A stretch of 41,903 bases of DNA from Chrysophaeum taylorii (taxonomy: Eukaryota > Sar > Pelagophyceae > Pelagomonadales > Pelagomonadaceae): positions 1 through 41,903 of the forward strand of contig JAQMWT010000335.1 in assembly GCA_029834535.1 (NCBI GenBank), given 5' to 3'. Position numbers and translations under genes: made by a program. A model generated the notes under the pieces. It saw only the letters and a program-made list of their open reading frames with translations. It was not told where the DNA came from and ran no database searches. Of the stretch, positions 1,423-31,127 are shown in pieces (position 1 is the stretch's first letter; the number at the start of each line of letters is the position of its first letter).

Positions 1423-3331
1423 ATGTTACTTTGTTCTGGTTTGTCAACTCCGGCGTTCCTGTCTCAAGCCACTAATGACTTAGGCTTAAATATCAATGTA
1501 AAAGTTGTTGTTGAGTCTGATGATACGCTTGTTCGTATGTTACGCCACCGTTTTCCTACTGTACTATTATTTGAATCTCTCCCCGCCTTTATTAACCATC
1601 TTCACCTAATCTCACCAGAGGAAAGGCGCACATTCTATTGTGATATAATTGAGATCACTCCTCCCTGCACAAACAGGAATTTACTAAAACAACAAAAGTC
1701 AGAAGACTTACACAGCCTGCTGGACGATTCTCTTTTCGACAGCATGCTGTCTGTCATCAAGCTACTCCAGCCCTTGGTACTACTGGCTGAGATGACGCCT
1801 CCGCATAAGTACTGTCATCAAGACCACATCACAGTGGCCAACCTTATCTATGCTACTCTTGATTACTGTGTCGATGTTGTTGATAGGTTCCCGACCTACC
1901 TATGTGGCGACTACCAATCTAGAGAAAGGTGGATATGCATCGCACGCAGATATTCTACTGGACCAATTAAACTATCATCGTGGCCCATCCTCCATCCACG
2001 CCCCTTCCTAAAGATCGTGGATGATCTACAAGTTATTCCCAAGCGCATTTGGCTACCTAACCACATATCCAAAGACTTGATCGGGTGTTCCCGATCCTCC
2101 ATACATATCCGTTCCTAAAACGTTTGCACCTTACTCGCACAGGTTCTGCTCAGCTTACTATGGCTGACCTTGAATCCCTCAATATGTTACTGCTTCGCCT
2201 TCACTCACAACAGGCTCACGAGCAACGTACTCACTCTGTTCAACCCGAGTGTACTTACCATCAGTTGTGCTTTAAACGCTCCTCTATGGAGCCATTACCC
2301 AATGCAACACATCCTATACACGTCAAGATTTTTACAATCCTCTATAACGTGTTCGCAAGCTTACATACTAACTCACCCACTCCTGTGTCCTATTACATAA
2401 CCGTTTTCGAAACTAACCAACCGTCACACAGGTTACTTACAACCTCATCAACATCACACAACTCCTACTTCTTAACTGGTGGCCACCATTCCGACGGCAA
2501 CCTCACCATAGAGAACGCTACCACCAACCAAAAGACCCCATCAGCGCCTTTGGAGGCACGTATACGTTCACTGCTTCCGACATCCCCCGCGACCGGGACA
2601 GGTCCATATATCTGGAGCCGTTTATGGGTTACTTGTGGATAGTCCAAGCCCTCCCTCAAGTTGGCTCCGCTACCACCTATGGCACCGCCATACAAAACCT
2701 CGTGTCCAGATGCGCTCGTGATGCCTGGCTGCCTTACCTACTAGGCCACCGACAACTCTTTCGATTACAAGGATTCTCTTTTGCTCTGGAAGATCATCAC
2801 CTATCTCATAGTCGCTATATAGGGTACCTTCGTGGAAGTGACCGCAAACTCGGCTCTAAAATCCACTCCATGCTTGCTCCATTGCCAACCGTCCGAGGGT
2901 ATGCCAATATTATTTTACTCGACCCTCGCAACGGGAAATTACGCTACCCCACTCGACCGGAGTTGATTCGTGCTAACAACCACACCAAACAACAGGAATC
3001 TTTCCTCTTGTCTCTACGCCATGACCTTTGCTGTGACATGCTCAGCAATGCTCTGCCTGCCGGTACGTACAGCACTCTGTACAAGCACCTTTCGCTCATC
3101 GTCGCCGATATTAAATCCCTTATGTTGGACCCTACCTTCCAACATACTGCTGCCGTGACGAAGAAATCCTATGTATCCAATTTCATGACCGTTGACCAAG
3201 CTCCCATCACGTGCAGCACAGATACCTTGTCTTTGGCACAATCCTTTATGATGACTATTTCCAGCAACTGCTTGACCGAAATGTCGTTAAACTATATATC
3301 GTCGTCCTACGAAGATACTCGCTACTCGTGA
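1423..3331 (+). pseudogene. C5 cytosine DNA methyltransferase (DNMT) domain, copy 1
   Basis: This family methylates cytosine C5 in DNA using S-adenosylmethionine. The motifs appear in order. Motif I is LLCSGLSTPAF (cofactor loop) and motif II VVESD. Motif IV is EITPPCTNRN, with catalytic Cys82 at 1666-1668. Motif VI is LLAEMTPP, keeping the Glu of ENV. Motif VIII is GDYQSRERWICIARR (QxRxR). After a long target-recognition region come a pre-IX stretch with LAPLPTVRGYANIILLD, motif IX RYPTRPELIRA (about 2940-2972) and motif X LSNALPAGTY (about 3040-3070). Frameshifts near 2085 and 2560 split it into three open frames (1423-2118, 2085-2642, 2624-3331), so this copy is inactive although the catalytic residues remain. 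It lies between protease and integrase. Homology is judged by motif order and spacing; no profile search was run. Confidence 0.85.
3275..3295 (+). other. SLNY junction site, DNMT/integrase, copy 1
   Basis: TEMSLNY in frame with DNMT motif X and shortly before integrase. Codons TCG TTA AAC TAT. Confidence 0.6.
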
Positions 3332-3399
3332 TAATGAGGATGCACCTCCAAGTGACCCTGCTGTGCACCAGGATGACGACGCACCGCCTTCCCTGCCTT

Positions 3400-4093
3400 A
3401 GACACCGAACTCAAGTTCGATGTTCGGCGCAAACGGCACATTCCGCTCATCCATTCCTCGTAAGTCCCTCGCACACGGATCCACCGAATATCTCAATGCC
3501 AAAGAACGTGCTAATCGCTTTCACCGGGTGCATCACTGCCCCGACAACGTCGCTGCCAAGGCCCCCAACGTACTTGCTCGCCCTGGATTCTCTGCTTCTG
3601 ACATACCATATCGCGACTTATGCACCGACTGCATCGCACACAACAAGCGCCACCCGCACAAGCATTTCAATGCGACCAAGCCTTCTTTTGAGCAAACCCA
3701 CAAAGCCGGCGAAGTCTGGGCGTGCGACGGCGGCTATGTGACCATCCCATCCGAATGGGGAGGCTTCACACATATCATCGTCTTCAAGGAACTCATTTCG
3801 AAATTTCTCTTGGTGTACTTTACACGCACCACCAACGCCACGGAGTTCACTCAAGCTCTGGATTTTGTGTATGACTTCTGTCGTACACAACTCAATGTGC
3901 ACATGCGCACCCTCTACTCCGATGCATTCAAGCCTTACTTTAGCCAGCACATTACCTCCCCGTACCGCGTCGATAAGGGCATTCAACTCATTGCCTTCCC
4001 GCATGCACCACTTTAACTTTGAAGTTGAGTCTGCCATCGGTTTCATCGCCTCCGCCTCCTCAACTCGCCTTCGTTCTCTCCTTAATGCGCACC
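3400..4093 (+). pseudogene. Integrase, N-terminal and catalytic core, copy 1
   Basis: This is a DDE integrase that would join element cDNA to the genome. A pre-integrase zinc-binding segment is seen (HHCPDN, then CTDCIAHNKRH). The core shows WACDGGYVTIP (first Asp) and LYSDAFKPYF (second Asp). After a one-base frameshift near 4008, FEVESAIG supplies the likely catalytic Glu. The first open frame is 3420-4016. It continues past the truncated repeat at 4094-4160. It is broken by the frameshift and by that insertion. Confidence 0.75.
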
Positions 4094-4160
4094 GGCTCCT
4101 GCCGGTCCGGCCTGGCTCCCATGCTCGGGAGAGGTCTGAAGTTAGTTAGTTAGTTAGTTA
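4094..4160 (+). mobile_element. AGTT-tailed repeat, copy e, strongly 5'-truncated
   Basis: Only the last 67 bases are present, from GGCTCCTGCCGG to the (GTTA)n tail, identical in layout to the 3' end of the longer copies. Loss of the 5' side with an intact tail is typical of elements copied by target-primed reverse transcription. No target duplication is clear. Confidence 0.7.
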
Positions 4161-4363
4161 TCGTGGCGCCAAGATCGTGGAACCCGCTATCATGTTCCCA
4201 TGGGCGGTGATACACACCGTTCAAAGCTATAACCTTCTCCCGAACGCCACGCTCGAGCGCATTCATCATGCTATTCTGAGTCCGCAACAGCTACTCTACA
4301 ACCAACTCAGCACACCCCAACACGATATGCTCAAGATATTTTGGCGCTGAATGTTGCCTCCTA
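4161..4363 (+). pseudogene. Integrase C-terminal/connection remnant, copy 1
   Basis: The frame reads RGAKIVEPAIMFPWAV and then a stretch with YNLLPNATLERIHH, resembling the post-catalytic part of Copia integrases where Asn-x-x-Pro is common. It stops at a TGA near 4348. The fingers and palm N-terminal half of reverse transcriptase expected next are missing, so an internal deletion lies near 4350. Confidence 0.45.
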
Positions 4364-5026
4364 TTGGAGCCCCATGAACACCACAAGTGGGAACCGTGCC
4401 GCCGCAAATATCTGTATCTCTGTTGCGCCAACGCGCAAAAAATAGACGGCTTCTTCCGTAGCCTTGGTTACCATCGCCTGCATTCGGACTCTTGCCTATA
4501 TGCTCGAGTATCCGCACATGCTAAGTTCGTCGTATGCAGTCTGTCTGTAGACGACATTGTTATTGTGTCCAATGACGACTCTCTTCGTACTGAATTACAG
4601 GACGCCCTCCACAAACGGTATGCTGTAGAGCAGTTTGAACCTGTCCATACCCTCCTAGGCATGCGTGTGTGTCGCACATCTGACGGCTCCATTTCTCTGG
4701 ATGTGCAAGCCAAGCTGGATGAACTCTTCGCTGATCACCCAGTCTTGCAGCAACTGACCCCGCTTAAATATCCCATGTCATCGTCCTTCAAGTACAAAGA
4801 TGGCACTCCCAGCACTGAAACAGAGTTGTACATCAATTCGCACTTTGCCACCCTCCTTGGCAAGCTGGTGTTCAAGCAAGTTGCCTGCAGACCTGACTTC
4901 TCGCAAGCCTTGGGCAGATGTTCGCGTGGTATGCATGCACCCACATATGTTCACGTCCAAATGCTAGAGCATTTGCTTCGCTATCTCAAGAAGCCGGAAA
5001 ACCACTCACTTCGCCTCTAGTATCAC
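4364..5026 (+). pseudogene. Reverse transcriptase, C-terminal half, copy 1 (Copia type)
   Basis: The open frame 4364-5020 starts inside the palm. FFRSLGYHRLHSDSCLYAR is the Copia block before the active site, and LSVDDIVIVSND holds the paired catalytic Asp (VDD). LLGMRVCR and LRYLKKPENHSLRL are the thumb/connection blocks. The N-terminal half (about 150 codons, with the first catalytic Asp) is absent. A TAG at 5018-5020 precedes an AGTT-tailed repeat inserted in reverse, after which the frame continues at 5308. Confidence 0.8.
5020..5026 (+). repeat. Target duplication GTATCAC flanking repeat copy b
   Basis: GTATCAC at 5020-5026 recurs at 5301-5307 on the far side of the insertion. Confidence 0.7.
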
Positions 5027-5300
5027 TAACTAACTAACTAACTTCAGACCTCTCCCGAGCATGGGAGCCAGGTCGGACCGACAGGAGCCAGTCCGGAATC
5101 ACGGGCCTGTAGACGAGGAGCGCCGAAAGGTCGGTAGTGACCATCAAGCTTGTCGCCATGCGACGAGGAGACCGCGATGTGACTGACAACCAACTCGTCG
5201 ATAACCTTCCGTCTGCGCCCCCCGGCCATACCCCGTCCCACTGCGAACGTTCCGGCTGCCAACCGGCCCGCCCGGGAGGCGAATAGGTGCCAAGGGGGGG
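5027..5300 (-). mobile_element. AGTT-tailed short non-LTR repeat, copy b
   Basis: A 274-bp minus-strand copy; its (AGTT)n tail is at the left (5027-5043) and the 5' end, next to a run of C, at 5300. It is flanked by the 7-bp duplication GTATCAC. It lies inside the region joining reverse transcriptase to RNase H of Copia copy 1. The Copia frame continues on both sides when the insertion and one duplicate are removed, apart from the TAG at 5018. Confidence 0.8.
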
Positions 5301-5482
5301 GTATCACCCTAAAGGTAATGCCATTGAAGCTCACCTTCGCACTGTCTCCGCTAATCGAATTGATCTATCCACAGTGGTTGACTACCAACCACAGGATGTA
5401 TCTACTGGACAGTTTGACCCCTTAGTTGCTATGGTTGACGCTGACAATGCTCCTTCCTTAGCACAGGAAGATAGGAAATCTA

Positions 5483-6516
5483 CAAGTGCAGGCCAGTAAG
5501 TTCGCCAGTAAGTTCACCTAGTCCCAATCTCTAACCCCAGTAAGTTCACCTGGTCCCAGTAAGTTCACCTGGTCAGTAAGTTCACCTAGTCCAAATCTCT
5601 AACCCCAGTAAGTTCGGCGTAAACCCACTCGTGCTCACACCACTCCTTCGAGCTCGTCGCTCTCGCCTCCGCCAATCTAAGCTGCTTTGATCCGCACACG
5701 CCGCTAACCTTTGAGTTTACTCTAAAACCCCCAGTAAGTTCACCTGGTCACTATATTCACCTAGTCCCAATCTCAAACCCCAGTAAGTTCACCTGGTCCC
5801 AGTAAGTTCACCTACAGTGCGCGTGTAGACGCCGGGAGGGGGCTTATCGGTATTGCGGAGCACGTGTGGGGTAGGGTGGAGTCGTCGACCCAGATGAGTA
5901 TATATCCTCGGGGATGCCGATCGACAGAGAGCCACGTAGAGCTGGACGTGGCAGAAGACGGGCTTGGGAAAGAGGACGCCGACCTCGCGGGGCGTCTGGC
6001 CCTGGCTCTTGTTGATCGTTTGGCGTCGGCGGGCCTTAAGGGATACAGGTTGGAGGAGCCTCGGTGACAACGACACGATCGATCATGTATCTGGTACCGT
6101 TGCAGTGGCCGTGCGACGGGTCGAGGTTGCGAAGACTTTAAGCTCGCGATTAAAGTCAGCATGCCGTTGGCTGTCAGGGAGTTGGAAACTCGACTGTAAA
6201 GAGCGAGGCGTCGTCTTCCGACCCAACCTAGTCTGCCTAAAAGAACTCCGACGCCTCGTCTCCGGGAAAAAAAGGCCGCGGTCATGCGCGCGTTGTCAGC
6301 ATCGACAACATCGTTTCGACGGGGCGTGAGAATGGCGCGCTGAAAGAGCCGCCGCGGGTCGTGGAAATAGTCTGCGAGGTCGCCGTAGACGGCTTGGAGG
6401 ATCACTGTCTGGCTCTCGCGCCTACCTGATCCTTACTCTCGTGCATACATGATCCTTACCCTAAATCGAGGGACAGACAAACAAACAAACAAACATCTGT
6501 CGATTAGTAGTTAGGA
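5483..6516 (-). mobile_element. Helitron A with degraded Pif1-like helicase
   Basis: The 5' end (minus strand) is TCCTAACTACTAATCGACAG at 6516 and the 3' end CCTGCACTTG at 5483. There is no target duplication: deletion rejoins the RNase H codons of copy 1 exactly. On the minus strand the end of a Helitron helicase is recognisable as RAILTPRRNDVVDADNA and TINKSQGQTPREVGVLFPKP followed by QLYVALCR, in different frames. The Rep domain is absent and the helicase is frameshifted, so the element is non-autonomous. The 3' side holds many copies of GGTGAACTTACTGG. The 5' side has a run of GTTTGTTT/GTCTG units. The 3' end CTTG differs from the usual CTRR. Confidence 0.85.
5812..6405 (-). pseudogene. 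Helitron A helicase C-terminal remnant
   Basis: Pif1/RecD-like helicase of a rolling-circle transposon, C-terminal end only. Motif RAILTPRRND is in one minus frame. TINKSQGQT (helicase motif near VI), PVFCHVQLYVALCR and SASPRIY lie in another frame (6076-5789), so at least one indel separates them. The same remnant appears in Helitrons B and C. Without the N-terminal Walker motifs or a Rep nuclease it cannot drive transposition. Confidence 0.8.
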
Positions 6517-6547
6517 CCACCGGGTTTGTCTTCTATCTTTTCAACTG

Positions 6548-6914
6548 AGACCCTTACCCTGATGGCCGACTGCGGTTGCGATGGAGGACGGTGCCTCATG
6601 AATCCTGAGCCTTGCGAGGGCATCCGCCCTCCCGGCGTAGGTTGGCACCTATTCGCCTCCCGGGCGGGCCGGTTGGCAGCCGGAACGTTCGCAGTGGGAC
6701 GGGGTATGGCCGAGGGGCGAATACGGAAGGTTATCGACGAGTTGGTTGTCAGTCACATCGCGGTCTCCTCGTCGCATGGCGACAAGCTTGATGGTCACTC
6801 TCCGCCGACCGACCTTTCGGCGCTCCTCGTCTACAGGCCCGTGATTCCGGGCTGGCTCCTGTCGGTCCGGCCTGGCTCCCATGCTCGGGAGAGGTCTGAA
6901 GTTAGTTAAGTTAG
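6548..6914 (+). mobile_element. AGTT-tailed short non-LTR repeat, copy c (longest)
   Basis: 367 bp between the 11-bp duplication CTTTTCAACTG (6537-6547 and 6915-6925), interrupting RNase H codons that rejoin correctly. It has about 90 bases of 5' sequence lacking in the other copies, ahead of GGCGTAGGTTGGC. TGGCCGACTGCGG near 6564 loosely resembles a Pol III A box and TGAATCC near 6598 part of a B box, so a tRNA-derived SINE head is possible but weakly supported. The tail is GTTAGTTAAGTTAG. Confidence 0.8.
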
Positions 6915-7442
6915 CTTTTCAACTGCCTTCTTGGTTGGAAAAGCAAACTTCAACCGATTGTCTCCTGCTCAACTCACGAAGCTGAGTTGATTGCCCTCAG
7001 TATTTGTGCTGATGAAGCTGTTTGGCTACGCAAGCTGTTGTTGGAACTCTCCTTCGTCGTCAACCCCACCTTCTACGTCAACAATGCTAATGGTGAGAAC
7101 ACCGCTGACCCTGTCGACTTCGATGACAATGACAACCCAATTGCTGAAGATATGCGCTTCATCAGAAGCCTACCTCTCTTGTCTGACAATGCTGCCGCTG
7201 TTCACACCTCTAATAACCCAGATGGGTCCTCTCGATCCAAGGCACTGTCGACCAGATGGTTTAAAATCCGTGAGTACATCTCGCTACAGAAAATACGAGT
7301 CCATCATGTTCCCGGCAAGCTGAACGTGGCGGATGGTTTTACAAAACCACTTGCTGCTGAGTTCTCCACTTTTCGTTCTCTACTCGGTATGCATCATGCC
7401 TCTCACGACAATCCTTTACAGGATTGAAGATACCTAACTCTA

Positions 7443-9492
7443 GTGACCGCAACGTCGTTAAACTATCCCTGGCCTTACCTTCTCTTGCCACAATTTTTTG
7501 TACACGGGCGAGTGTTGTTCATGTCTTTCTTGACACTCCCGTGGCCGTGGCATCTCTCCAGTCGTTCAAAGGACAATTCCACGCTCGCTTTCCACGGCCG
7601 AGCCTTCTCCCAAGTTGTTTCAAAAGCGACAACCCATAACCACTGTCACTCCTACTACCTCCCAGGCTGCTACTGTTTCACCGACACCAGCTGAACCTGT
7701 TTTACTACAATCCCTAACACTCCAGGATGGCCTCAACATGGATTTTGCCCTGATTGAACGAGGATACTCTCTCTCTGAGAGCTTCCGTACTCCTGCTACG
7801 CCCTTTCTCTCTTCTGTTATGCGAGCGGAAATCTCTACGGCACTCAACTCGATATATGAATCTGCTGACTCTTTACTGTTTGTGGAACTAACGACATTCA
7901 TATCCATGCGCCTACCCATTACTACATTTTGGGAAGCTGCTCCTGCTATTACTTCTATTGGCTGCTACAGAGGCCCCAAACGTGAACGTTTCATCCTGTC
8001 ATCCTACTGTACGCAATGCCTCAACGATTTGGGGCAGCCTACATTTCTTGCTTCTACCACATATAATTCGAAGTCACAAGCACCTAGTGAACTCCCCACT
8101 GAAGTACTGAGTCACCTCAACACAGATGACCACAAGAAGAATGGTCACATCCCCATCTCAACTATCACCACTAACATTTGTTGCGCTTGTCACAACACCG
8201 ATCAGGCGCCCATACAACCTAACGTATGTGCACGTAATGCTACTTCCTTCCAAGCCTCCTGTGATGGGTGCTCAGCTGGTCATATGCACGCAACCATCAT
8301 ACGCACGTATCATTTGCCAACGGAGCTACATACTCTCTTGACTAGCTGTCTAACGCGACATTCGTCACTTGCTCATTTAGTCTTATCAGTAACCGATGCA
8401 GCCACAGACTCCACTACTCAATTACCATAGGCACTGGACCTTCGGCTTATTACTCAGATGCACCTGGAGCATCTTAACTTTCTTGTAACGCTCGAGCGAA
8501 CACAAGCTCGTAAAACTCAGGCTATGTTCAAGCCCACCAAATACCACCATGTGATTCATACTGTTATCCAATCGTGGGTACAACACCTTGACGACTACGT
8601 ATCATCCTCAGACGATACAAAGCCGCCATCACTCTTGGATGTAATGTTCGGCCCCACCTATACTCCGGCCGAACGTCAAGACTTTCTGCACTTCCTAAAC
8701 ACGAAATACCCCCTACTTGCACAGCATGTGTTGACCGAAACGTTATTTAACTACTCACGTCCCTCATCAGAATCTACTCTGGAAATGTCTTCGCCATCGA
8801 CACACCCTGCTCCTTCTGCCTCGCCTGATGATGTCGATGCGTTGCGCCAAGAAGTCGAACAACTCCAGGAAACTCTTCGCCTATATATTCGCAAGGTCAA
8901 CACCCTCAGCGCTGAGAATCTATCTCTGCGCACAGATCTACAGGCTGCCATTGCTTCAATTACCTCCCTGGAAAACCGGCTCTTTCCTCCCACAGCCAAT
9001 GCACACGTGTTGCTTGTAACACTGTCCAAGATCACAGAGCTACTGTCTCGCTTAACGCCAACAGCTCATGACCAATATGCCGCCAACCATCCCTCCCCGG
9101 ACGATCACCTCCATCGTCTGCGTGATAATTTGCTCTCGTGTATTCGAAGCATTCCCTTCGCATGTGAATCGGAAGACCCCTCTATCCTCTCGGATCCGTT
9201 CGCTGAGTCCAACTTTTTGGAAAACCAACTGGACACCCTAAAACTTGACTCACTAGTGCCATCCCTACTGAATGCTTTACTTGCACTCACGTTTCGTATG
9301 GTACCACACCATTCTGCTATTGGCGTTCACCACCTGACAGCAGAAGCTGACGAAGACGATACCGATACTCTCGAACCAGTAACGTCCACCACCTCAGATA
9401 GCTTTAACACACTGTCTGCCGTACCTGTGTTTCGTAATGCTCTGTTCAAAAGCGTCAAGTCGACTCTCAGCTCCACCAAGTCCAAGCCCTAA
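7443..9492 (+). pseudogene. Extra 3' coding region after RNase H (unknown function)
   Basis: I do not recognise this protein. It begins in the RNase H frame just after a UGA, with VTATSLNYPW, shifts frame near 7610, and runs as one frame from 7615 to 9492 broken only by a TAG at 8428-8430. The total is about 620 codons. The first part (7615-8430) has paired cysteines: YCTQC, ICCACH, VCARN and SCDGCSAGH, suggesting zinc binding. The second part (8458-9492) has a heptad-like coiled coil around 8840-8985 (DALRQEVEQLQETLRLY) and an acidic tail. It lies between RNase H and the 3' LTR, the place of env-like or accessory genes in some LTR elements, but no signal peptide or membrane segment is evident. 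Only copy 1 reaches this region in the window. Confidence 0.6.
7446..7466 (+). other. SLNY junction site, RNase H/3' region, copy 1
   Basis: TATSLNY followed by PW, in the RNase H frame beyond the UGA at 7425. Codons TCG TTA AAC TAT. Confidence 0.55.
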
Positions 9493-9658: not shown

Positions 9659-9953
9659 TGCCTCTTACCCTTATCCGTCCGTTGAGAACGTGATCTCTTC
9701 CTTACCCTTTTTCTTCCTTTCTGCACAATCTAATAGTCCTCTGATTTGTGCCTACGCTCATCATCATGGTCTAGCGCGCCCCGAGGTATGTAGCACTATA
9801 CACTTTACCTTTCTCGTGTAGTTCTAGATGCCGCCTGTCGTGTTCTGAGGATATAGGGAACATACCTTTTCATTCCCCGAATTAACTACTTCCAGACGTT
9901 CACGATGAGACGGGATGGTTTCCCAGGTGACTTACCACTCTTTGCTAAATGCT
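9659..9953 (+). repeat. 3' LTR of copy 1, truncated
   Basis: TGCCTCTTACCCTTATCC onward matches 35865-36165 in front of copy 4 with few differences (CATCATCATGGTCTAGCGCG, GCCGCCTGTCGTGTTCTGAGG). Similarity ends after TTGCTAAAT at about 9953, where minus-strand integrase of copy 2 begins, so only about 295 bases are left. Confidence 0.7.
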
Positions 9954-10926
9954 CTGCGCTATTTATAAAGGTTTTTTGCGCACTCTTCTCGACGTACATG
10001 CGAGCGTGAGAGCGTATGATGCGCTGTATGGTATAGAAGAGAACGACGAAGTTTGAGCGATAATCGGGCGTGGTGGGGTGTTGGCTGAAGTACGGCCGAA
10101 ACGCGTCGGAGTATACTCTGCGTAGATGCACATTGAGTTGAGTGTTGCAAAAGGCATGTATGTAGTCTAATGCCTGCGTAAATTCGATGGCGTTAGTAGT
10201 GCGGGTGAAGTAGGCTAGTAGGAACTTCGATAGTCGTTCTTTGAAAACAATAATATGGGAGAAGCTGCCCCATTCAAATGGTATGGTTACGTAGCCACCG
10301 TCGCAAGCCCAGACTTCGCCAGATCGGTGGGTCAGTTCAAAATTGGGCTTGGTTTCGTTAGTATGGGCGTGGTGGTGACGTTTGTTGTGGCAAATGAAGT
10401 CTATGCACATATCCCTATATGGAATATCGGATGCTGAGAAGCCGGGGCGAGCAAGGACGTCTGGGGCTTTGGCGGCAACGTTATCAGGACAGTGATGTAC
10501 ATTGTGGAAGCGGTTAGCGCGTTCTTTGGCATTTTGGTATTCGACGGTGCCGTGGGCGAGTGATTTGCGAGGAGTTGCCTTGACCGGGATGTGTTTCTTC
10601 CGACGGACATTGAATTTGAGTTCGGTGGATGCATCTAGTGATGGGGCATGAGGGTCATCGCTAGTGTCAGCATCATTAGCAGGGGTAGTTGTAGAGAGGG
10701 TTTCCTCCGGTGTTGTTCCTGAGGAGCGGTAGTTTAACGACTTTTCGGTCCAGCTGCAGTTGGAACTGTGACTCATGAATGCATTCGCCTGAAAGACAGT
10801 GTATGAGCTGTGACTGGAAAGAAGCAGTTCACAGGTGAGGAAGGTAGATACACAAGTCTTCTTCAAGGTAGCATTGTCGTGTTGAAAGGAAGGGTTCAAC
10901 ATAAGTGACTTCATATCGACGACCAC
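9954..10926 (-). pseudogene. Integrase of copy 2 (with DNMT tail)
   Basis: One open frame covers the end of the DNMT, SLNY (10729-10749), a linker, and integrase. Zinc-binding segment: HHCPDN then CIDFICHNKRHHH. Core: WACDGGYVTIPFEW (Asp 1) and VYSDAFRPYFSQ (Asp 2). Downstream residues diverge from copy 1 and the frame runs into the truncated LTR of copy 1 near 9953, so the Glu and C-terminal domain are not securely present. The unbroken frame through SLNY supports a DNMT-integrase polyprotein. Confidence 0.75.
10729..10749 (-). other. SLNY junction site, DNMT/integrase, copy 2
   Basis: TEKSLNY, codons TCG TTA AAC TAC, in one frame with motif X upstream and integrase downstream. Confidence 0.6.
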
Positions 10927-11412
10927 GCGACAGACGTTAGTGTAAAGGATGTGATAATTGCCCGCAGGTAGAGCATTGCTGAGTAGGTCGCAGCATAAGT
11001 CTTTCTTCGATGAAAGTAAGAAGGGCGTCTGGAAGCGAGAGTGGTTGTTTGTTGGCTTTGATAAGTTCGGCTCGCGTAGGGTAGCGGAGTTTGCCGTTGC
11101 GAGGGTCCAACAGGATTATGTTGGCATATCCCCGGATAGTTGGCAATGGAGCCGACATAGAGTGAATCTTGGATCCGAGCCTGCGGTCGCTGCCGCGTAA
11201 GTAGCCAATATACCTGCTATGAGAAAGATGGTAATCTTCCAAGGAAAAAGATCTGTCCTTGGAAGTGAATTGATCGGAGGATTGGTTGTATGAGAGACAG
11301 TCGGGCATAACAGAGAGCACTGTTGGAGTAAGCTGCGGATGGCAGGGACAGTGTTGTGGGCTGCGTTGACAGGGGGGTAGGCTTGCACTAGCCATAGGTA
11401 TCCCTGAAACGA

Positions 11413-11532
11413 ATCGAGATGGAGCGTCTTATCGGCGGGATTATCGCTGGCGGTTAGGGTGTGAGTAGATCCATCGAGATGGAGCGTCTTATCGGCGGGA
11501 TTATCGCTGGCGGTTAGGGTGTAAGTAGATCC
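11413..11532 (+). repeat. 60-bp direct tandem duplication within DNMT copy 2
   Basis: Two near-identical 60-base units (ATCGAGATGGAGCGTCTTAT start) at 11413-11472 and 11473-11532; 60 is a multiple of three, so it adds 20 codons in frame. The encoded unit includes TLTASDNPADKTLHLD. Confidence 0.85.
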
Positions 11533-11580
11533 ATATGCGTTGATGGAAGCCTGATGTTTGCTTGCTTTGTTCTCAACTAG

Positions 11581-11661
11581 TAAGTTGCCATCAGAGTGGT
11601 GGCCACGTAAGTTGCCATCAGAGTGGTGGCCACGTAAGTTGCCATCAGAGTGGTGGCCACC
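11581..11661 (+). repeat. 27-bp unit repeated three times within DNMT copy 2
   Basis: TAAGTTGCCATCAGAGTGGT-type unit at 11581, 11608 and 11635; 27 bases gives nine residues (GHHSDGNLR) per unit. Copies 1 and 4 have at most one unit. Confidence 0.85.
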
Positions 11662-12782
11662 GGTGAGAGTGTGGATATTGAAGGTAGATGAGGAAGTTGT
11701 AAGAAATAGCCTAGGAGCGGGCTGGTTAGTTTCGAAAATCGCAACATAGCAAGATACAGGTGTAGCGTTGTTCGGCGAGATTCTGGCAAACAAATAGTAT
11801 AGAGTGACAAATGCCTTGAGGCGGAGAGGATTTGAAGATCCGGGTAGTGGTTGATTAGAGGATATTTGAAACCAAGGTGATGATAGGAACACTCCGAGTG
11901 CGTTTTATGTGTATGTTGTTCGAAAGCCTGCTGTGAATGAAGCCTGAGAAAGAGTAGGTTGAGGGTCTCAAACTCATAGAAGCTTAACCGAACGGAGCCA
12001 GTGCGAGAGTACAAAGGAAACGTCTTGGGAGATTGAACCAGTGGTGGATCTGGGTAAGTGCGAACCCAGCCTTGAGACAGAGTCTTGGAGAGCCAGAGGG
12101 TTTTAGGCACGGAGTTAATGTCATCTGCTATGTCCAAGAAGCGCTTCGGGTGCTGGTTCGGCCAGGACAGGATGTCCATGGGTCCAGTGTTGTACCTGCG
12201 AGCAAAGCAGATCCATCGTTCCCGAGATTGGTAATCGCCGCACAGATAGGTAGGGAAGCGGTCGACTACATCAACAGTGTAGTCCAGTGTAGCGTGAATG
12301 AGGTTAGCCACGGAGATGTGATCCCTGTGAATACACTTGTGAGGGGGTGTCATCTCCGCAAGTAGGACTAAGGGTTTTAGTAGTTTGATGACAGATAGCA
12401 TACTGTCAAAGAGGGAGTCGTCGAGCAAACTGACCAAGTCGGATGTTTTGGTGCTCGTGAGAAGATTTCGGTTGGTACAAGGGGGAGTGATTTCTATCAC
12501 ATCACAGTAAAAATTCCGTCTTTCATCCTCCGTTATAGACTGGAGATGGTTGAGGAAAGAGGGTAGAGATTCGAAAATAATAATCTATGGAAAGTGTTTG
12601 CGTAACATGCGTACAAGCGTTTCATCGGACTCAACGACAATCTTAACATTGATGTTTAAGCCCAAGTCATTGGTGGCTTGTGACAGAAACGCAGGTGTTG
12701 ACAATCCAGAGCATAGTAACATGGCCGTTGGTTTGCGAGAGCCATTGTTGGTAGTTGATAGGAATGCTGGGCGAGTGCGTAG

Positions 12783-12785
12783 TCA
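12783..12785 (-). other. In-frame UGA between protease and DNMT, copy 2
   Basis: GCT TGA CTA CGC on the minus strand; the next 21 codons are open and lead straight to motif I. The UGA-CUA context matches copies 1 and 4. Confidence 0.55.
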
Positions 12786-13122
12786 AGCGAGAGGTGGAGT
12801 GTTGTTCCCTACATATTCATTCTGCTTCCGAAGGTTGAGAAGTAGAGTACGCAGCCACGGTCGAGTTTTGAGCTTGGTGACCAGGTAATTGTAATAGTGA
12901 CAAAGGTCGCGGTTTTCGCTGTACCTCTGCAGCGGGAAGGATAGTGAACGTAGCTCAAGGTTCCTATCGCACACAAGTGTGTAGGGTAGACACGGTAGTG
13001 CCGGGAGGTCGTGGTCGACGTACTGAATGGGCACATGCACGTCTTTATCGAGTAAGCTAGTGTGATGCGACATATTTGGCTGTTCACTGTCATTGAGAAT
13101 GACAGTTAGCTGAGCCTTGTTC
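12786..13122 (-). pseudogene. Protease C-terminal segment, copy 2
   Basis: The frame carries the conserved protease extension: DKDVHVPIQYVDHDLPALPC, NLELRSL and LLLNLRKQNEYV, then PLA and UGA. The equivalent blocks follow the protease in copies 1 and 4. It is separated from its N-terminal half (16060-16941) by the Gypsy derivative. The function of this roughly 110-residue extension, present in all four copies, is unknown. Confidence 0.65.
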
Positions 13123-13455
13123 TGTGGTGGAAACTCAGCTCACCCGCCCCTCTTCGCCTAACCGTCGGTCACAACGTGACCGCTCAACTGTCCTGAACCA
13201 CGGGTGGTTCCACCACACGTCCAACCAAGCACTCACACTCCGCTCACGCCATGCTGTCGAACATTCAATTGAGGGTAATTTCAAGGAAACAACAAGAAAG
13301 CAATACAAATGCCCGGTACATTGGGTCCAGTGGAAGCGCAGGTGAAGGTGTCAAGATGACACCCCCCCATAAATGCAAGGTCAATACCAGGGCAACAATC
13401 AGGGTAAGTCAGGTGGCAGGCAGGCAAGTGGGGGGAAATGGGCATTACTGCCACA
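13123..13455 (-). repeat. 3' LTR of Gypsy derivative
   Basis: 333 bp, nearly identical to 15727-16059. The last ~150 bases (U5 side) match the LTR of the full Gypsy, while the U3 side contains a different segment. Confidence 0.9.
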
Positions 13456-13485
13456 TAAGCCCCCTACTTGAGATGAAGTCGTCCT

Positions 13486-13690
13486 CGACTTCAAAGGGTG
13501 ACGAAGGTCACGCTGACGAATGGTACGATAAGCTCGGTGAGCTACATCAGCAGGAACTTTGTTGCTGTGGAGGCCGAAGTTACTGACGAGGACATCAATT
13601 TCATTCAGGCGAAAGTCAGGCACAAGGTTCACAGCCGTCCATATTCGTTCGTAGACGAGTGAAGCTACCTCCGTCAGGGTCTTTGTCTTC
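13486..13690 (-). pseudogene. Pol C-terminal remnant of Gypsy derivative
   Basis: Matches the last 60-70 codons of the full Gypsy pol: DVLVSNFGLHSNKVPADVAH and RAYRTIRQRDLRHP. It joins pol residue ~106 to the C-terminus after a deletion of about 3.2 kb, removing all enzymatic domains. An extra T at the stop region opens the frame into the LTR. Confidence 0.75.
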
Positions 13691-13695
13691 TGGTC

Positions 13696-14000
13696 TCAAA
13701 TGTCGCTCTTCATCCGTTTTTCATCCTCATTTAAAGCGGGGTGGTCTGTAATGCCCAGCGCAGCCATCACCTCTTCGACCTGCGCGACGGTCGGAGGGAT
13801 GACTTGCATGCTCTCTTGATCAGCTAAATGAGGAGGCACCACTGGTACAGGATAACCATGTTCGTCGTTAGGCGCGTCCGCCCACGGAACTGCGTACGTC
13901 TTGAAATACGCTGGTCGCTCCTTCAATGTGCCTTCCTCTTCAGCGGTCGTAGAGACTTGGTTGCTCTGCATCACAGCAGTGGCGACGGAACAGCGGTGAC
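13696..14000 (-). pseudogene. Pol N-terminal remnant of Gypsy derivative
   Basis: VATAVMQSNQVSTTAEEEGT through ITDHPALNEDEKRM corresponds to pol 27430-27712 of the full Gypsy, ending at TGA just past the deletion. The RT domain begins beyond the deletion point and is absent. Confidence 0.8.
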
Positions 14001-14227
14001 GTTTGAAGTTTGGCGAGCTGGAAAACAGCTCGCGCTTGTGGACATGAGTCCAAAGCCAACACAATGCGAAAAGAGGTTCCATAGATCTCATTGCATCGTT
14101 GGATCCCCAAACTCGATCCACCAGCGCCGGCGAAATAAACGACGACGCTGATATAGGTGATTGGAATCCAAACCAAAGAAGCATGCCTAGCAATCAGCTC
14201 CTGAGTCGTGGCTTCTTCCTTCGACAT
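13940..14227 (-). pseudogene. DNMT N-terminal fragment inside Gypsy derivative
   Basis: This 95-codon frame starts MSKEEATTQE and reads VVVYFAGAGGSSLGI (14117-14134 encodes FAGAGG), then IVLALDSCPQARAVF. These fit motif I (F-x-G-x-G-G, S-adenosylmethionine loop) and motif II (acidic residue after a hydrophobic strand) of C5 cytosine methyltransferases. The sequence then jumps to RHCCDAEQ, the pol start in another frame, so the rest of the enzyme is deleted. The full Gypsy at 22777 has MSKE at the same place (27349) but no DNMT. The fragment is unlike the Copia-borne DNMT (LLCSGLST), pointing to a separate acquisition. Motif-level evidence only. Confidence 0.7.
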
Positions 14228-15261
14228 TTTTTTTTTGTTCCTTCTTCTGGAGGAGGTTCAGGAGGGGGTCTCACAGCTAAGACCTCCTCCTCGACTTCCG
14301 TCTCATCTTCGTCAGCTGAAGCAGTCGCAAAACAGACTCTTGTATCCTCTTCAGCGGCTTCCAGCTGTACTTTGACGCAACCTTCATGTGGTATGATCTC
14401 TCCCTCGATCATGGGTACCTCAGGGTCGAGTCCAATAGGTCCTGTGCCAACATGCTCCACAGCCACGTAAACTTCGTTCGGCTCGTGGAAGCAATATGAC
14501 GACAAAGAGTTTGGTATCACACGCAAATCAGGGTAGAGCGAGCGATAAGGGCGGTAGGCCTGACCTCTTATCAGTGGCGCGTCACAGACAAGCTCCAGCA
14601 CATAAGGATGGCATTCCTTACGCGTACGGTGGGGCTTGTCTTTTGGGACTTTGGTCTTTTTTGGATCTTCATGCTTGTCGCTGGACGTCCCCACCTCTGG
14701 CATCGCGTCCAATTGCAAGGCAAGTTGGAACGTCTGGTCTAGCGTTTGGTCCGGGGCCGAGATCCGAGACTCTTCTCGCTCGTATTCCATCGTCCCTTCG
14801 AGATAGTGGATCTTAGAGCGATATTCTTCAACTTTTTCGAGGAGGGTGCGCATAAGCGCGGGATCCCCCTCTATCTTTTCTTCTCCAGCAATCGCAGAGT
14901 AAGGTGGGGCCGGCGGTGCTCGAGTCACCGGCTCCCGGATTGCAGCTGGAGTTCCTGGGTCGGACCGTAGTCGTTCCGTACGGATCGTCTCGTCTTCTCG
15001 TACGTGCACGGGCATAGGCGTTGGATAGCCCCCGACTACCGTTGCAGGCATAGGTTCTGGGGCTGTCATGGCCCCCACCTCTTCACTTTCTGGAGTGCGC
15101 ACTTCTGGCCGGACAGCCGTATCCGCCGCACTCTCCACTGGTATCTCCACTCGTTCGCCACCCGTCCCGACATCTAGCCGTCTTCGGAGGGATGACTTCA
15201 TCACTGGGGTGATGACTCGCCGCAGGCGTTCCTGGGCGTCCCGAAACCACGGGGCCGTCAT
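14194..15261 (-). pseudogene. Fused gag-protease remnant of Gypsy derivative
   Basis: A 355-codon open frame. N-terminal 160 residues match gag of the full Gypsy (MTAPWFRDAQERLRRVI), then skip to RISAPDQTLDQTFQ, then skip again from HRTRKE to CHPYVLELVCDAPLIRG of the third Gypsy frame. Both deletions keep the frame. It ends in a Pro/Glu-rich segment (PPPEPPPEEGTK) and a basic tail. The capsid-forming region and the zinc knuckle are gone, so it is probably not a working gag. Confidence 0.75.
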
Positions 15262-15726
15262 CTAATTTTGTTTTTGTCGTCAAAGCAGCAATTTGCCGGC
15301 TACTGCTTGACTGCGCGCTTGAGCCGGTTTGCTAGAGGATATGGTCGTCCTCCCCGGCCTACCTGTTCTGGGAGATGGCTGTCTCCCCCAGGCGAACTCT
15401 TTTTTTTTTTGGGGGGGTTGTCTTGAGGATATGGTTGTCCTCCCCGGTCTGCCGTTCTGGGAGCGATGGCTTACTCCCCGCTCCCCAGGCGATTGTTTTT
15501 CGAGACTCACGACAACGTCCGCTCACGTTCGAACACGCCGAACGCTTGTTCCGCTTCGCGTATCGGAGTGACACCCTCGGTTCGCCGGAACCGCACCCAC
15601 AAACACGTCGGCTCTGCACTCGCTCAAAGCCTGAACACGATTCGCCGCCGACCGCGGGAGACTGACAGTCCGGGATTCGCGTAACAACAACCCCGGAAAC
15701 TGTCAGTTCCCGTTTCTGAGACCACC
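15262..15726 (-). other. Leader of Gypsy derivative with primer binding site
   Basis: Corresponds to 23136-23595 of the full Gypsy. TGGTCTCAGAAACGGGA (minus strand, 15724-15708) lies two bases from the LTR, as expected for a tRNA-primed start. Two copies of GAGGA-(8 nt)-TCCTC hairpins are present near 15340 and 15430. Confidence 0.65.
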
Positions 15727-16059
15727 TGTGGTGGAAACTCAGCTCACCCGCCCCTCTTCGCCTAACCGTCGGTCACAACGTGACCGCTCAACTGTCCTGA
15801 ACCACGGGTGGTTCCACCACACGTTCAACCAAGCGCTCACACTCCGCTCACGCCATGCTGTCGAACATTCAATTGAGGGTAATTTCAAGGAAACAACAAG
15901 AAAGCAATACAAATGCCCGGTAGATTGGGTCCAGTGGAAGCGCAGGTGAAGGTGTCAAGATGACACCCCCCCATAAATGCAAGGTCAATACCAGGGCAAC
16001 AATCAGGGTAAGTCAGGTGGCAGGCAGGCAAGTGGGGGGAAATGGGCATTACTGCCACA
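15727..16059 (-). repeat. 5' LTR of Gypsy derivative
   Basis: 333 bp with TGTGG...CCACA ends; only a few substitutions from the 3' LTR, indicating fairly recent insertion. Confidence 0.9.
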
Positions 16060-19205: not shown

Positions 19206-21848
19206 TTAGAGAACGGCGTTGTTACCCGGGAGCTGGCGAAAAGCCTCAGCGCTGGCATGGGTTGCCCGAGCGGCTGTCTGGCGAAGATGACGGTGGGGTT
19301 CCTCTTCGCTCTCCTTCCTCTCCTCCTCGTCGTCACTGTCGTCCGTCCGTTGGTGATTCCGCTCCGCTCTCATCCTCTTCGCAGCGGCCTTGACGGCGTC
19401 GTTGCGGCCACCGCCGCGCTTCATGTTGGGCCTTCCGCGAGGCCGTGGGACGGCGAGCTGCTTGGTAAGGGCCGTCTCGGCCGGGACCACCGAGTCAAAG
19501 TCCGGCACAGGCAACTGGCCGGCGGCAAGGTACTGAGACTTCATCAGGGCCGTCGTGTCGAGGCGCGAGACGCACTCCTGCAGCGTCGTCTTGCCCGCGC
19601 ACTCATTGATGACAGAGGCAACGTGAATGCACGGAAACTCGTTGACTTGGGGTCCGCCACAATCGCAGGTTGGGCAGTCATGGTGGATATTCATGTGGAA
19701 GACGCGTCGACTGCAGAAGGCGCGCGCCTGCCCCCCCCCCCCCGCCAGACCAGGCGATGCGCGTCACTTTATCCCTCGCGGCCACTTCGACCTCGGCGAG
19801 CTTGCCGATCGCTTTTGTCGTCGCAAATGTCGACATGCTGCTCGCCTCTACCGCATACTTGTCAATCTTCTCCTCGCTCATCTCGACGAAGCGAACAAGT
19901 GCAGCAGCCGGGTCCTCGATTTCCCGGACCTCCTTTAGCAGAGACCAGAGCGACTCGACCTGGTTTGAGGTGTGCTTCTTGTGGAGGAGACCCGCGTTCT
20001 GCAGCGCGCACTGAACATCTCGTGGGAACTTGTCCACGAACGATTTTTCCTTCGGCGAGAGCTTCTCGTACGCAACCTGCTGTGCGAGCTCGCTCGTCGC
20101 CTCCACCTGTGAAACGTCTGTCGCTAACACGAGATTGACAACATTGAGAGTGACAAAAGGCGACGTTGCGAGACTCGGACGAACACGAAGTTGAAGTACC
20201 GATCCTTGGCACCCTTGGTGCCGGATTTGCCGGCGAGCAAGGTTCCTCTGTGCTCCTTGCACAGAAACATGCGTCCAAGATGAATTTCATTCTTAATAGC
20301 GGCAGCACCTTATCGCCGTCGACGATGAACACGGTGGTGGCAGTGTCTATCTTTTCCTCGCCGTAGTACTCCTTACCCTCGCGGGACAGTCGGGACCAGC
20401 TCTCCGTGGACTCGTTCTCGGTGGTGTGCATGAAGACGAGGGGAGTGGTGTGGTAGTTCGAGTCGTAGCCCGTAACGGCGCCGAAATTACCGCCGTCGAC
20501 ATGCTTGGCCCAGGCGAAATCGGCCGTAAACACTGGCTTGATCAAGTTGCCCTGGAGCATCCTCCAGGTCGTGGGCGGAGCGACGACCCAGCCCCTGTAA
20601 TAGACCTTGTCCGGATCGGCCCGCGGCAACGTTGCCTCGTCTGGGGTGACCTGCTTCTCACGGGGCCGGCTCTTGTTCAAGTGCCTGAGGTCCGCCTTGG
20701 CGCGTGGTACGACGATAGCGTTCATTTTGATCGGCGGAGGCAGTGAGCAACTTGGCGTGCCAGCCCGCGTCCTGTAGCGCTTGGATGTAGGGCTTGATCT
20801 TCTTCAGGTTGTCGCTCGGCTTTCCATGGAGCTGGAGGGCGGCCATCAACATCACACGCGTTACTAGGTCTTCGGACGGGGTCACAAGACAAATGGGTGC
20901 GAGTACCGCCTTGACACCTGAGCGGGGCACGGACATGCGGTTTCCCCTTTGGGACTGCACGGCGGCTTGAGCCAAGACTTCCGCCGAGTAAGCCGTCCTG
21001 CGATCGCGGTGCGGGTGCGAGTCGGCGTCTTGTCTATCACGACGCCCATCGACCGAGAGCACCCCGCAATCCGGGTCGTGTCGCTTGAAGTTTACAAGCT
21101 TCCAGGTTCTGAGACCTCGCGGCGGCGGGCGTCGAATAAATGGGAACACGTCGGCTGCGTACAGACCGTTCGCAGCCGTGTACGGTTGTTGACGGGCTTG
21201 ACTTTGGAGCGCGGATGGGCCGTGTCGAGGAACGTAAGGAACGACGCACCCGAAGCCTCGGAGTACTCCATCGCCGTCACCAGCGCCCCCTTTTTGGATT
21301 TCCAGCTCGTCGCAGACGCTTCCTTCTCGCCGTTGTACCAGTTCAGCACGGCGCGCGCGCGTAACAACTCCTCGGCGCGCAGTTCTTTACCCCAGTCGAC
21401 CGTACTGAGCTCACTCAGCGAGCGCAGAGCGCGCCAGGACTGCTCCTCGTCCTCCGCCGCGATCCGTGCCTTGCGCTCCTTATCAGCCTTGGCCTTATTG
21501 GCCTTCTTCTCGGACTCCGTCAAAGCCGCGCGCCGCACGAGCGCCGCGGCCTACTGCTCAATCTCTTCCTCCCCGAAATTCTCCTCCGACGACGACTCGC
21601 CGAGCGCGATTGCCACCGCTGCTAAGTTCTGCGACACAGGAGCCATCGTCGGCGGCACTGATGTCATCGCCGGCACTTTCTGTCTGCAGCACGCTCTCCT
21701 CTAGCTTGGCAACAACTCCGGAGACTGGAGCGCGCTGCTTAAGGCAGGACAGGATTATGCGCACTAACTTCTTACCTTGCTTCGACCGTGCCCTTGACTT
21801 CTCGAGGGTGCCGAGGGGGTTGAGGAGCGCCTCCTTCCTGTCGTCCAA
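19206..21848 (-). pseudogene. MULE transposase with SWIM zinc finger
   Basis: Cut-and-paste transposase of the Mutator-like group. From the N-terminus on the minus strand: a Lys/Ala-rich charged stretch, a sequence-recognition segment with CTQPTC and FKRHDPDCG, and AYSAEVLAQAA. The MULE core follows with FTADFAWAKH (first Asp), YDSNYHTTPLVF, NESTESW and FIVDGDKG (second Asp). Next are CKEHRGTLLAGKSGTKG and KKHTSNQVESLWSLLKE, then the SWIM finger CDCGGPQVNEFPCIHVASVI near 19670-19610 and an acidic/basic tail. The pieces lie in several frames (breaks near 21100, 20700, 20290, 20160 and 19735, the last at a C run), so it is inactive. Confidence 0.75.
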
Positions 21849-22776: not shown

Positions 22777-23135
22777 TGTGGCGGTAATAACCATTCCCCC
22801 CCCCCACTTATGTGCCTGTTACCTGCCTGTTACCTTGAATTTGGCGGTGTCATGCTTGACACCCACACCTGCTTCTCCAAGGATACTCCTGTACCGAGGA
22901 CCTGTGTTGCTCTTGCCGATCTAGCATATCTTGCTGGATCTCCCATTGGAATCTATCGATTCTTGCTGATTCCTTGAAATTACCCTCAATTAAATGTTCG
23001 ACAGCATGGCGTGAGCGGAGTGTGAGCGCTTGGTTGGACGTGTGGTGGAACCACCCGTGGTCCAGGACAGTTGATCGGTCACGTTGTGACCGACGGTTAG
23101 GCGAAGAGGGGCGGGTGAGCTGAGTTTCCACCACA
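22777..23135 (+). repeat. 5' LTR of Gypsy element
   Basis: 359 bp; a poly-C run at 22796-22806. It ends TTTCCACCACA. No TATA box is obvious. Confidence 0.95.
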
Positions 23136-23137
23136 GG

Positions 23138-23154
23138 TGGTCTCAGAAACGGGA
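23138..23154 (+). promoter_or_regulatory. Primer binding site of Gypsy element
   Basis: TGGTCTCAGAAACGGGA, two bases after the LTR, complementary to a tRNA 3' end in -CCA. It is conserved in the derivative at 15708-15724. The tRNA identity was not determined. Confidence 0.65.
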
Positions 23155-23399
23155 ACTGATAGTTTCCGGGGTTGTTGTTACGCGAATCCCGGACTGTCAG
23201 TCTCCCGCGCCCGGCGGCGAATCGGTGTTCAGGCTTTGAGCGAGTGCAGAGCCGACGTGTTTGTGGGTGCGGTTCCGGCGAATCGAGGGTGTCACTCCGA
23301 TACGCGAAGCGGAACAAGCGTTCGGCGTGTTCGAACGTGAGCGGACGTTGTCGTGAGTCTCGAAAAACAATCGCCTGGGGAGCGGGGAGTAAGCCATCG

Positions 23400-23530: not shown

Positions 23531-23595
23531 CGGCTCAAGCGCGCAGTCAAGCAGTAGCCGGCAAATTGCTGCTTTGACGACAAAAACAAATTTAG

Positions 23596-31092: not shown

Positions 31093-31127
31093 AGTCGAGG
31101 ACGACTTCACCTTAAGTAGGGGGCTCC
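31093..31127 (+). promoter_or_regulatory. Polypurine tract region of Gypsy element
   Basis: AAGTAGGGGG at 31114-31123, four bases before the 3' LTR; the likely primer of plus-strand synthesis. Confidence 0.6.

Follow-up and report, generated by a model that had tools for sequence, protein, structure and literature searches.

A C5-cytosine methyltransferase-like domain in the Pol of Copia retrotransposons from the alga Chrysophaeum taylorii

Transposons usually suffer cytosine methylation, and to our knowledge few of them carry a methylation enzyme. The 41,903-nucleotide stretch of Chrysophaeum taylorii DNA analysed here (contig JAQMWT010000335.1; hereafter the window) raises the question of whether a Ty1/copia retrotransposon encodes a C5-cytosine methyltransferase (C5-MTase, or MTase) and, if so, how the element would make and use it. 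A first-pass annotation had proposed such an enzyme between the protease (PR) and integrase (IN) of a Copia element present in four copies in the window, numbered here by position. We examined the window, contig C335 in our numbering, together with the 70.8 Mb genome in 697 contigs. That genome encodes beta-, alpha- and gamma-type tubulins in single frames, as befits a eukaryote, and an FtsZ of apparently plastid type which, with the small number of tubulins, points to an alga (types assigned by eye). Few tubulin matches and single-frame genes also raised the idea of a red alga, but PF00427 phycobilisome linkers had no match. The window's Ty1/copia element is called family A, a second Copia family of the same genome family B; "A-type" covers the main family of A (loci L024-L044) and its diverged subfamilies, including subfamily C. 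Judged from sequence, this is a real, selected, retrotransposon-borne C5-MTase-like domain in Copia, and a new form of the known retrotransposon DNA methyltransferases (DNMTs).

The methyltransferase-like domain and its element

The window element is Copia by its domain content. Its reverse transcriptase (RT) is of the RVT_2 type (E 7.7e-42 in L043, 5.4e-42 in L044, 1.6e-38 in family B locus L009 and 1.4e-8, over cut-off, in the window), and the integrase lies before the RT in the same Pol (rve at 784-866 and RVT_2 at 1431-1651 in L043). The rve scores of 16.9-20.5 bits are under the Pfam cut-off. L009 has all three domains in a single frame of 1951 amino acids (aa): PF00145 at 349-475 (E 1.1e-7, over cut-off), a weak rve match at 1016-1110 and, at 1686-1933, the RVT_2 match of E 1.6e-38; in L010, also of family B, PF00145 and RVT_2 are present and rve is unmatched. 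The proposed placement of the MTase thus holds as an order of domains in both families, with the amendment that in family A a UGA stop separates protease and MTase. The 14 loci of roughly 10 kb that were examined, 13 of which hold elements, showed no repeat pair flanking gag and pol; these stretches may be shorter than an element with its long terminal repeats (LTRs). The L009 element, with its Pfam-recognised C5-MTase in Pol, occupies 1900-9452 of that locus (contig C96); a 217-bp tandem duplication, 99.5% identical, lies directly upstream of its Gag frame at 1457-1891.

Both families are abundant. The window's MTase core as query gave at least 152 genome matches with identity down to 73% (best 150 of 1002 candidates scored). 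A query with the protease of subfamily C, to which copy 3 belongs, gave at least 150 (best 150 of 711 scored), and two family B MTase queries gave at least 89 and at least 157, some of them fragments of one copy; all are lower bounds on matches rather than counts of elements.

The clearest link to C5-MTases comes from family B. All ten members of alignment A5 score over the PF00145 cut-off (28.9-46.1 bits against 22 bits) and match again in a second profile search. All ten also match TIGR00675 (Dcm) at E up to 10, the best at E 5.6e-11; the listed member (member 1) has 33.9 bits, far under that model's strict cut-off. When the family B core profile was compared with the PDB at E up to 1, four of the five sequences matched were cytosine methyltransferases, three at E 0.010-0.013 and HhaI at 0.09, the fifth being an unrelated channel at 0.84.

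For family A the evidence is less direct. Two loci from two diverged subfamilies of the window's family, L045 (E 0.073, 12.9 bits) and L054 (E 0.061, 13.2 bits), match PF00145 as their sole Pfam family, below cut-off and over motifs IV-VIII. Aligned with hhalign, A and B are collinear, with the motif II Glu, the motif IV PC (Cys), the motif VI Glu and the block before motif VIII in register. Searched with the A profile, 6 of 15 family B proteins score above every one of the 3000 shuffles, and 12 of 15 fall within the top 13. Among 888 open reading frames (ORFs) from the window and loci, five family B MTase ORFs rank next after own-family pieces in the A-type core profile search (E 0.088-2.7); the rest of the 20 B ORFs rank lower, among unrelated ORFs.

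Several results pull the other way. No family A member searched exceeds the PF00145 cut-off (13.2 and 12.9 bits are the best, and window pieces give no match), and most A-type members lack a PF00145 match even at E 10 (6 of 7 in one search; L057, L056, L046 and L043 in another). L057 has no Pfam match although it belongs to the same subfamily as L054, and L056 instead matches DUF2441 at E 0.13. Family A profiles find no MTase in the PDB. The three versions of the hhalign comparison reach E 0.04, 0.067 and 0.11 with a probability of 0.5-1.3%, weak alone, and the reverse hmmsearch, with the B profile, mixes real matches with shuffles. Motif I of family A is unusual, reading LLCSGLST. An AlphaFold model from window sequences (alignment A3, 3 rows) has a predicted local distance difference test score (pLDDT) of 43.8 and a predicted template modelling score (pTM) of 0.28, too poor for a fold search. 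No single test of homology for family A is decisive, yet taken together the lines of evidence from both families make it very probable that its domain is homologous to C5-MTases.

A chance resemblance to a C5-MTase in the PPC and QSRER words of an unrelated Pol insert would account for window pieces without a Pfam match for the domain. We regard it as highly unlikely: the domain sits in the same position as the Pfam-recognised C5-MTase of family B, PF00145 is the sole match in members from two diverged subfamilies, and motifs I, II, IV, VI, VIII and X occur in order, with strong selection on these blocks.

The catalytic residues are also kept. Among loci chosen as best matches, every A-type locus (28 of 28) and every B locus (19 of 19) has the motif IV Cys; the B loci represent 17 distinct copies (L004/L018 and L006/L019 are identical places). 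The motif VI Glu is invariant in the 9 rows of alignment A6 and the 15 rows of alignment A2, and motif IV Cys, motif VI Glu and motif VIII Q.R.R are together invariant in 9 rows spanning subfamilies 55-59% identical. Motif IV reads PCQ in family B; in DNMT3 it is PCN. Motifs IX and X were placed by eye from the usual motif patterns, without a profile (IX at residue 529 of P0002 and 783 of P0001; X at 563 and 817, respectively). A 2-oxoglutarate dioxygenase was considered for the insert between VIII and IX, which has HxD in A and B, and dropped: it has no Pfam support, and HxD is not kept in subfamily C.

That the domain is a former MTase, now serving Pol as a structural or nucleic-acid-binding module without catalysis, would fit a family A motif I that departs from the usual pattern and the weak family-level matches. 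However, a binding module need not keep the Cys, Glu and Q.R.R that are invariant in the 9 rows, nor the Cys found in 47 of 47 loci, and we think this quite unlikely.

The MTase core is under purifying selection (dN/dS, or omega, by NG86). Among 45 A-type core pairs, 23 are saturated and without value. Ten pairs with dS 0.5-1 give omega 0.036-0.084; they come down to two independent contrasts, one between four loci and two others, the second between two loci and a single one. In four near-saturated pairs, with dS 1.8-2.2, omega is 0.071-0.237. Eight recent pairs range over 0.075-0.488, the high values being as expected when post-insertion decay adds replacements. The A-type insert in the ten pairs has omega 0.187-0.271, except for one short comparison (50 codons, 0.038). 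Region by region, L043/L044 give 0.077 for the core, 0.118 for IX-X, 0.049 for IN, 0.088 for RT, 0.11 for PR, 0.215 for the insert and 0.409 for the linker. In family B (11 pairs, all against L009), six pairs with core dS 0.56-1.16 have omega 0.100-0.154 and five recent pairs 0.069-0.254 in the core, with IN and PR in the same range. Core dN/dS is thus 0.04-0.15 at dS 0.5-1.2, like IN, RT and PR, so the MTase core is constrained like the replication enzymes. A less welcome result is that in family B the insert does not consistently show weaker constraint than the core (0.103 against 0.124 in L013).

The checks that the first-pass annotation had suggested therefore came out unevenly. Selection on the core was borne out in families A and B; the profile search succeeded for family B, reached L045 and L054 below cut-off and left most family A members unmatched; and structure prediction, run on window sequences, gave a model too poor to show a fold. 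The annotation had named, as grounds for giving up its proposal, a domain that does not score as a C5-MTase or intact copies that have lost the Cys or cofactor loop. What we find instead, with the reservations above, is family B over cut-off in 10 of 10 members and the Cys in every A-type and B locus. Its remark that the sequence is divergent enough for automated annotation to miss was apt: Pfam is silent on the MTase of the window copies, and family A stays below the PF00145 cut-off.

Recoding and a possible role

How would the domain be made? In family A the protease frame stops at UGA followed by CUA, and the MTase frame runs on from it. UGA-CUA stands at the junction in 20 of the 21 main-family loci L024-L044 (L044 differs) and is in frame with both sides in 17 of the 21; an indel disturbs the frame in L024, L025 and L036. 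L045, L047 and window copies 2 and 4 have it in frame as well, and copy 1 has it out of frame. In subfamily C the junction reads UGA-CGC, in frame in 4 of 4 loci and likewise in copy 3. Genome-wide, the upstream anchor has 114 exact sites, 87 of them with TGA at the in-frame spacing, and 84 sites match when the anchor is extended past UGA-CUA. An open frame of exactly 916 aa recurs in six rows of the subfamily C protease search (an observation made with L054 1-180), which fits a fixed Gag-PR end at the UGA.

Passages of PMC3542737 describe UGA followed by CGG or CUA as the type II context of viral readthrough. Twenty of the L024-L044 loci, L045, L047 and copies 2 and 4 have this UGA-CUA; subfamily C, with CGC and not CGG, does not. 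Besides this departure, it counts against readthrough that no RNA structure was found 3' of the UGA in six of six folds (z -0.04 to 0.92), unlike most type II viral cases. The conserved UGA, in frame with both sides in most loci read, suggests readthrough, with the MTase first in Pol.

Family B junctions look different. The next frame is -1 in 8 of 9, CTTTTTCG stands just before the Gag stop in 7 of 9, and Gag and Pol overlap, which suggests frameshifting rather than readthrough, with slippage presumably at that sequence. Two Copia families in one genome may therefore each make an MTase-bearing Pol as a minor recoded product.

As the best explanation, which we hold to be probable, we propose a Ty1/copia element with a C5-MTase as the first Pol domain, made by readthrough and methylating new complementary DNA (cDNA) or nearby DNA. 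The proposal starts from the observed domain order, catalytic residues, purifying selection and conserved UGA. Gag and protease would form one frame, ended by a conserved stop of leaky type (UGA-CUA, or UGA-CGC in one subfamily), and occasional readthrough would yield a protein of Gag, PR, MTase, IN, RT and RNase H. Because readthrough would be occasional, the MTase and the replication enzymes would be produced at the same low level and packaged together. There, if catalytically active, the MTase would most likely methylate cytosines in the new cDNA, or in DNA close to the integration complex, either ahead of integration or while it proceeds; that the element's own cDNA is methylated is something we infer.

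Does the genome show traces of such activity? The PF00145 search, read exon by exon with the best 123 of 474 candidates scored, could miss a split or distant DNMT. It gave at least 57 matches, of which, among the candidates scored, 55 match the family B MTase (32 overlap or adjoin B matches, 23 by eye); a direct reading of their place inside Copia elements covers the fetched loci only. The other two among the matches listed are probable host genes, identified by profile and PDB match:

L017, 6468-9899: DNMT5-like gene, a 2086-aa open frame (E 1.6e-159 to PDB 7r76, named Rad8)
L001, 1498-2574: DNMT2-like gene (E 3.9e-39 to PDB 1g55)

We take PDB 7r76 to be the Cryptococcus (fungal) DNMT5; in Cryptococcus, DNMT5 is a maintenance-type enzyme. 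DNMT2 is of the tRNA type.

CpG observed/expected ratios are 0.89 in family A elements, 0.96 in subfamily C and 0.99 in family B. Nine loci of host genes, two of them from a single gene, have 1.18-1.46, and a Gypsy element of the window has 1.08; GC content is 0.43-0.53 in the elements against 0.56-0.63 in the host loci. The mutation spectrum of the copies is less favourable to our proposal. In family A, at columns of 19 loci that are near-unanimous, C to T changes affect 9.2% of CpG, 9.35% of other C and 4.7% of CHG-like sites. Five family B loci show G to A at 5.6% in CpG against 3.5-3.9% elsewhere, and C to T at 3.2% against 3.4-3.5%. There is thus no excess of CpG mutation in family A and a slight, one-sided one in family B, and the spectrum gives no support for past CpG methylation of copies.

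The absence of a CpG signature in family A would be expected of an active C5-MTase that acts on RNA, the packaged genomic RNA or primer tRNA. Retroelements package RNA, and sections of PMC5890265 show that its authors raised an RNA substrate for SymbioLINE-Dnmt, an enzyme that did not methylate DNA in yeast, and called that yeast result inconclusive. However, family B matches DNA-type Dcm and PF00145, and the PDB matches are named as DNA-type cytosine methyltransferases. We consider an RNA substrate unlikely.

A further alternative is restraint: the enzyme would seed methylation of the element's own copies and DNMT5 would maintain it, limiting copy number and host damage. The DNMT5-like gene and the CpG ratios of 0.89-0.99 in elements against 1.18-1.46 in host loci speak for such a scheme. 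Yet family A copies show no CpG mutation excess, the low CpG may reflect base composition, and the window Gypsy, without an MTase, stands at 1.08; we give restraint little credence.

Returning to the methylation of new cDNA or nearby DNA by a readthrough-made enzyme, an MTase carried in the particle with integrase and RT would make element-cDNA methylation directly testable. It is tempting to go further and suppose that de novo cytosine methylation in this alga is supplied by retrotransposons, a claim we think improbable. If true, Copia-encoded enzymes would seed the methylome and DNMT5 would keep it, while the two families, their recognition inserts being different, would be in competition over which sequences are marked. 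With only DNMT2-like and DNMT5-like genes as other PF00145 matches among the best 123 of 474 candidates, the alga would be a natural case for studying the origin of de novo methylation where DNMT5 is alone.

The copies in the window

We scanned all six frames of the window with motif patterns derived from family A itself. The features of copy 1, the copy singled out in the first-pass annotation, are as follows.

565-1362, forward: C-terminal part of the Gag-protease region (ORF; 93% identity with the L043 Gag-PR frame over 508-1212)
766-783, forward: putative aspartic protease site FDSCAT (motif scan)
1360-1362, forward: the copy's own in-frame stop, TAA (sequence)
1365-1370, forward: UGA-CUA, probable readthrough site, out of frame with the MTase through small indels
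1426-1932, forward: MTase core, motifs I-VIII (ORFs, motif scan, genome-wide matches)
1426-1452, 1504-1521, 1663-1680, 1786-1806, 1909-1932 and 3044-3070, forward: motifs I, II, IV, VI, VIII and X (motif scan)
1660-1680, forward: motif IV as PPCTNRN (motif scan)
1933-2938, forward: insert between motifs VIII and IX, frameshifted, putatively for target recognition
2939-2965, forward: motif IX, LRYPTRPEL (by eye)
2939-3070, forward: motifs IX (by eye) and X (SNALPAGTY, motif scan)
3402-4016, forward: integrase (rve E 6e-4, below cut-off), with the integrase marker at 3717-3740
4280-5020, forward: Copia-type RT fragment (RVT_2 E 1.4e-8, over cut-off)
6915-7427, forward: RNase H end of Pol (ORF; in L044 this protein sequence follows on in the RVT_2 frame)

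The protease region of copy 1 has no Pfam match, so the name protease is suggested by the D-S-C-A motif and by position. The RNase H end, which has no Pfam match of its own, is split from the RT by repeated insertions. The features of the other three copies are as follows.

9886-12785, reverse: copy 2, of a diverged subfamily (68.9% identical to L043 over its residues 1-305)
12780-12785, 12213-12719 and 9886-11115, reverse: copy 2 in-frame UGA-CUA, MTase core and integrase ORF
12693-12719, 12624-12638, 12465-12482, 12339-12359, 12213-12236 and 10954-10980, reverse: copy 2 motifs I, II, IV, VI, VIII and X (motif scan)
10288-10311, reverse: copy 2 integrase marker (motif scan)
35281-35448, forward: copy 3, of subfamily C (35284 in the first-pass annotation), with in-frame UGA-CGC at 35281-35286 and motifs I-II only
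35353-35379 and 35431-35448, forward: copy 3 motifs I and II (motif scan)
39460-41779, forward: copy 4, in shifted frames and reaching the contig end, with in-frame UGA-CUA at 39460-39465, MTase motifs and integrase start
39523-39549, 39750-39767, 39872-39892, 39993-40016 and 41042-41068, forward: copy 4 motifs I, IV, VI, VIII and X (motif scan)
41714-41737, forward: copy 4 integrase marker (motif scan)

The interval 1423-3331 given in the first-pass annotation does span motif I to past motif X. Its motif series in four copies stands for copies 1, 2 and 4, which have I, IV, VI, VIII and X in the right order; motif II is present in copies 1 and 2, and the six-frame scan did not find it in copy 4. 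Copy 3 is a fragment with I-II only: motifs IV-X are absent from the six-frame scan, an approximately 267-bp repeat interrupts the copy at 35448-35714, and a 46-residue match picks up again at 35720. Motifs IX-X lie about 1 kb past motif VIII, beyond the long insert. Compared with its counterpart in L043, the upstream protease region reaches 93% identity in copy 1; copy 2, where an insertion splits it, has 47-53%, copy 3 has 32%, and copy 4 has 84-94% over separate pieces. None of the four copies, all of them broken, has an intact protease-MTase-integrase frame. In 100 shuffled windows the same patterns gave 2 matches for motif IV and none for VI, VIII or X; because the patterns were taken from family A itself, this shows only that the copies are non-random, and homology was tested separately.

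The repeat that interrupts copy 3 belongs to a group of about 270 bp found at 193-468, 5025-5293 (reverse), 6633-6908 and 35448-35714 (reverse), 95-99% identical in most comparisons and ending in GTTA tetranucleotide runs. A Gypsy element at 22796-31447 has long open frames, one an ORF of 620 aa without a Pfam match and the other a Pol of 1256 aa with RVT_1, RNase H and integrase; LTR-like direct repeats, 99% identical, flank them at 22796 and 31148. An inverted partial copy of the same Gypsy lies inside copy 2 at 13122-16025 (arms mostly 97-100% identical, one 78%), with 99% identical direct repeats at 13122 and 15726. At 19206-19763, on the reverse strand, lies an ORF that matches the SWIM zinc finger weakly (E 0.0019, below cut-off) and may be what is left of a MULE-type transposase. 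ARAGORN found no tRNA in the window.

Relation to known retrotransposon methyltransferases

Among collections that are mainly prokaryotic and viral, no homologous protein of either family was found at E <=1e-3 (897 and 2846 candidates). Viral contigs gave no confirmed stretch (0 of 10 for alignment A1, 0 of 12 for A2), nor did genome contigs for alignment A2, the only one searched there (0 of 42). Given that composition, these results say little about other eukaryotes. Pfam-based annotation would miss the window's family despite its at least 150 matches.

In the open-access literature, at the level of titles and abstract openings, we met no description of a Copia MTase between protease and integrase, and no paper on Copia with readthrough. 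One sentence in a section of PMC12344493, placing some DNMT3s in "LTR Copia" and DIRS elements, may be a prior notice of a Copia DNMT. It cites the 2018 paper PMC5890265, which describes Gypsy, and could be a slip or a new case; the section gives no architecture, readthrough or selection data. The MTase of a Sola element, predicted in the relevant part of PMC12477816 to make N4-methylcytosine (N4mC) or N6-methyladenine (N6mA), is a different kind of transposon MTase. The host DNMT5-like and DNMT2-like genes share the C5-MTase domain with the Copia enzymes and, unlike them, do not lie in elements.

The closest relatives in kind are the retrotransposon DNMTs that sections of PMC5890265 report from Symbiodinium (LINE and DIRS) and Klebsormidium (Gypsy). 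SymbioDIRS-Dnmt3 and SymbioLINE-Dnmt resemble the Copia MTases in that many retrotransposon DNMTs are under purifying selection, and differ in belonging to the DIRS and LINE classes; the same sections state that SymbioDIRS enzymes methylate CG de novo in yeast and that Symbiodinium LTR Copia elements are without any DNMT domain. KnitGypsy-Dnmt3 of Klebsormidium nitens is likewise an LTR retrotransposon with a C5-MTase inside Pol, without introns and under purifying selection (Ka/Ks below 0.2), although, according to these sections (PMC5890265), it is a Gypsy element with a Dnmt3-related enzyme and a DIRS-like repeat structure. The element described here is instead Copia (RVT_2), carries its MTase before the integrase with no Dnmt3 assignment, and in family A has a conserved UGA before the MTase.

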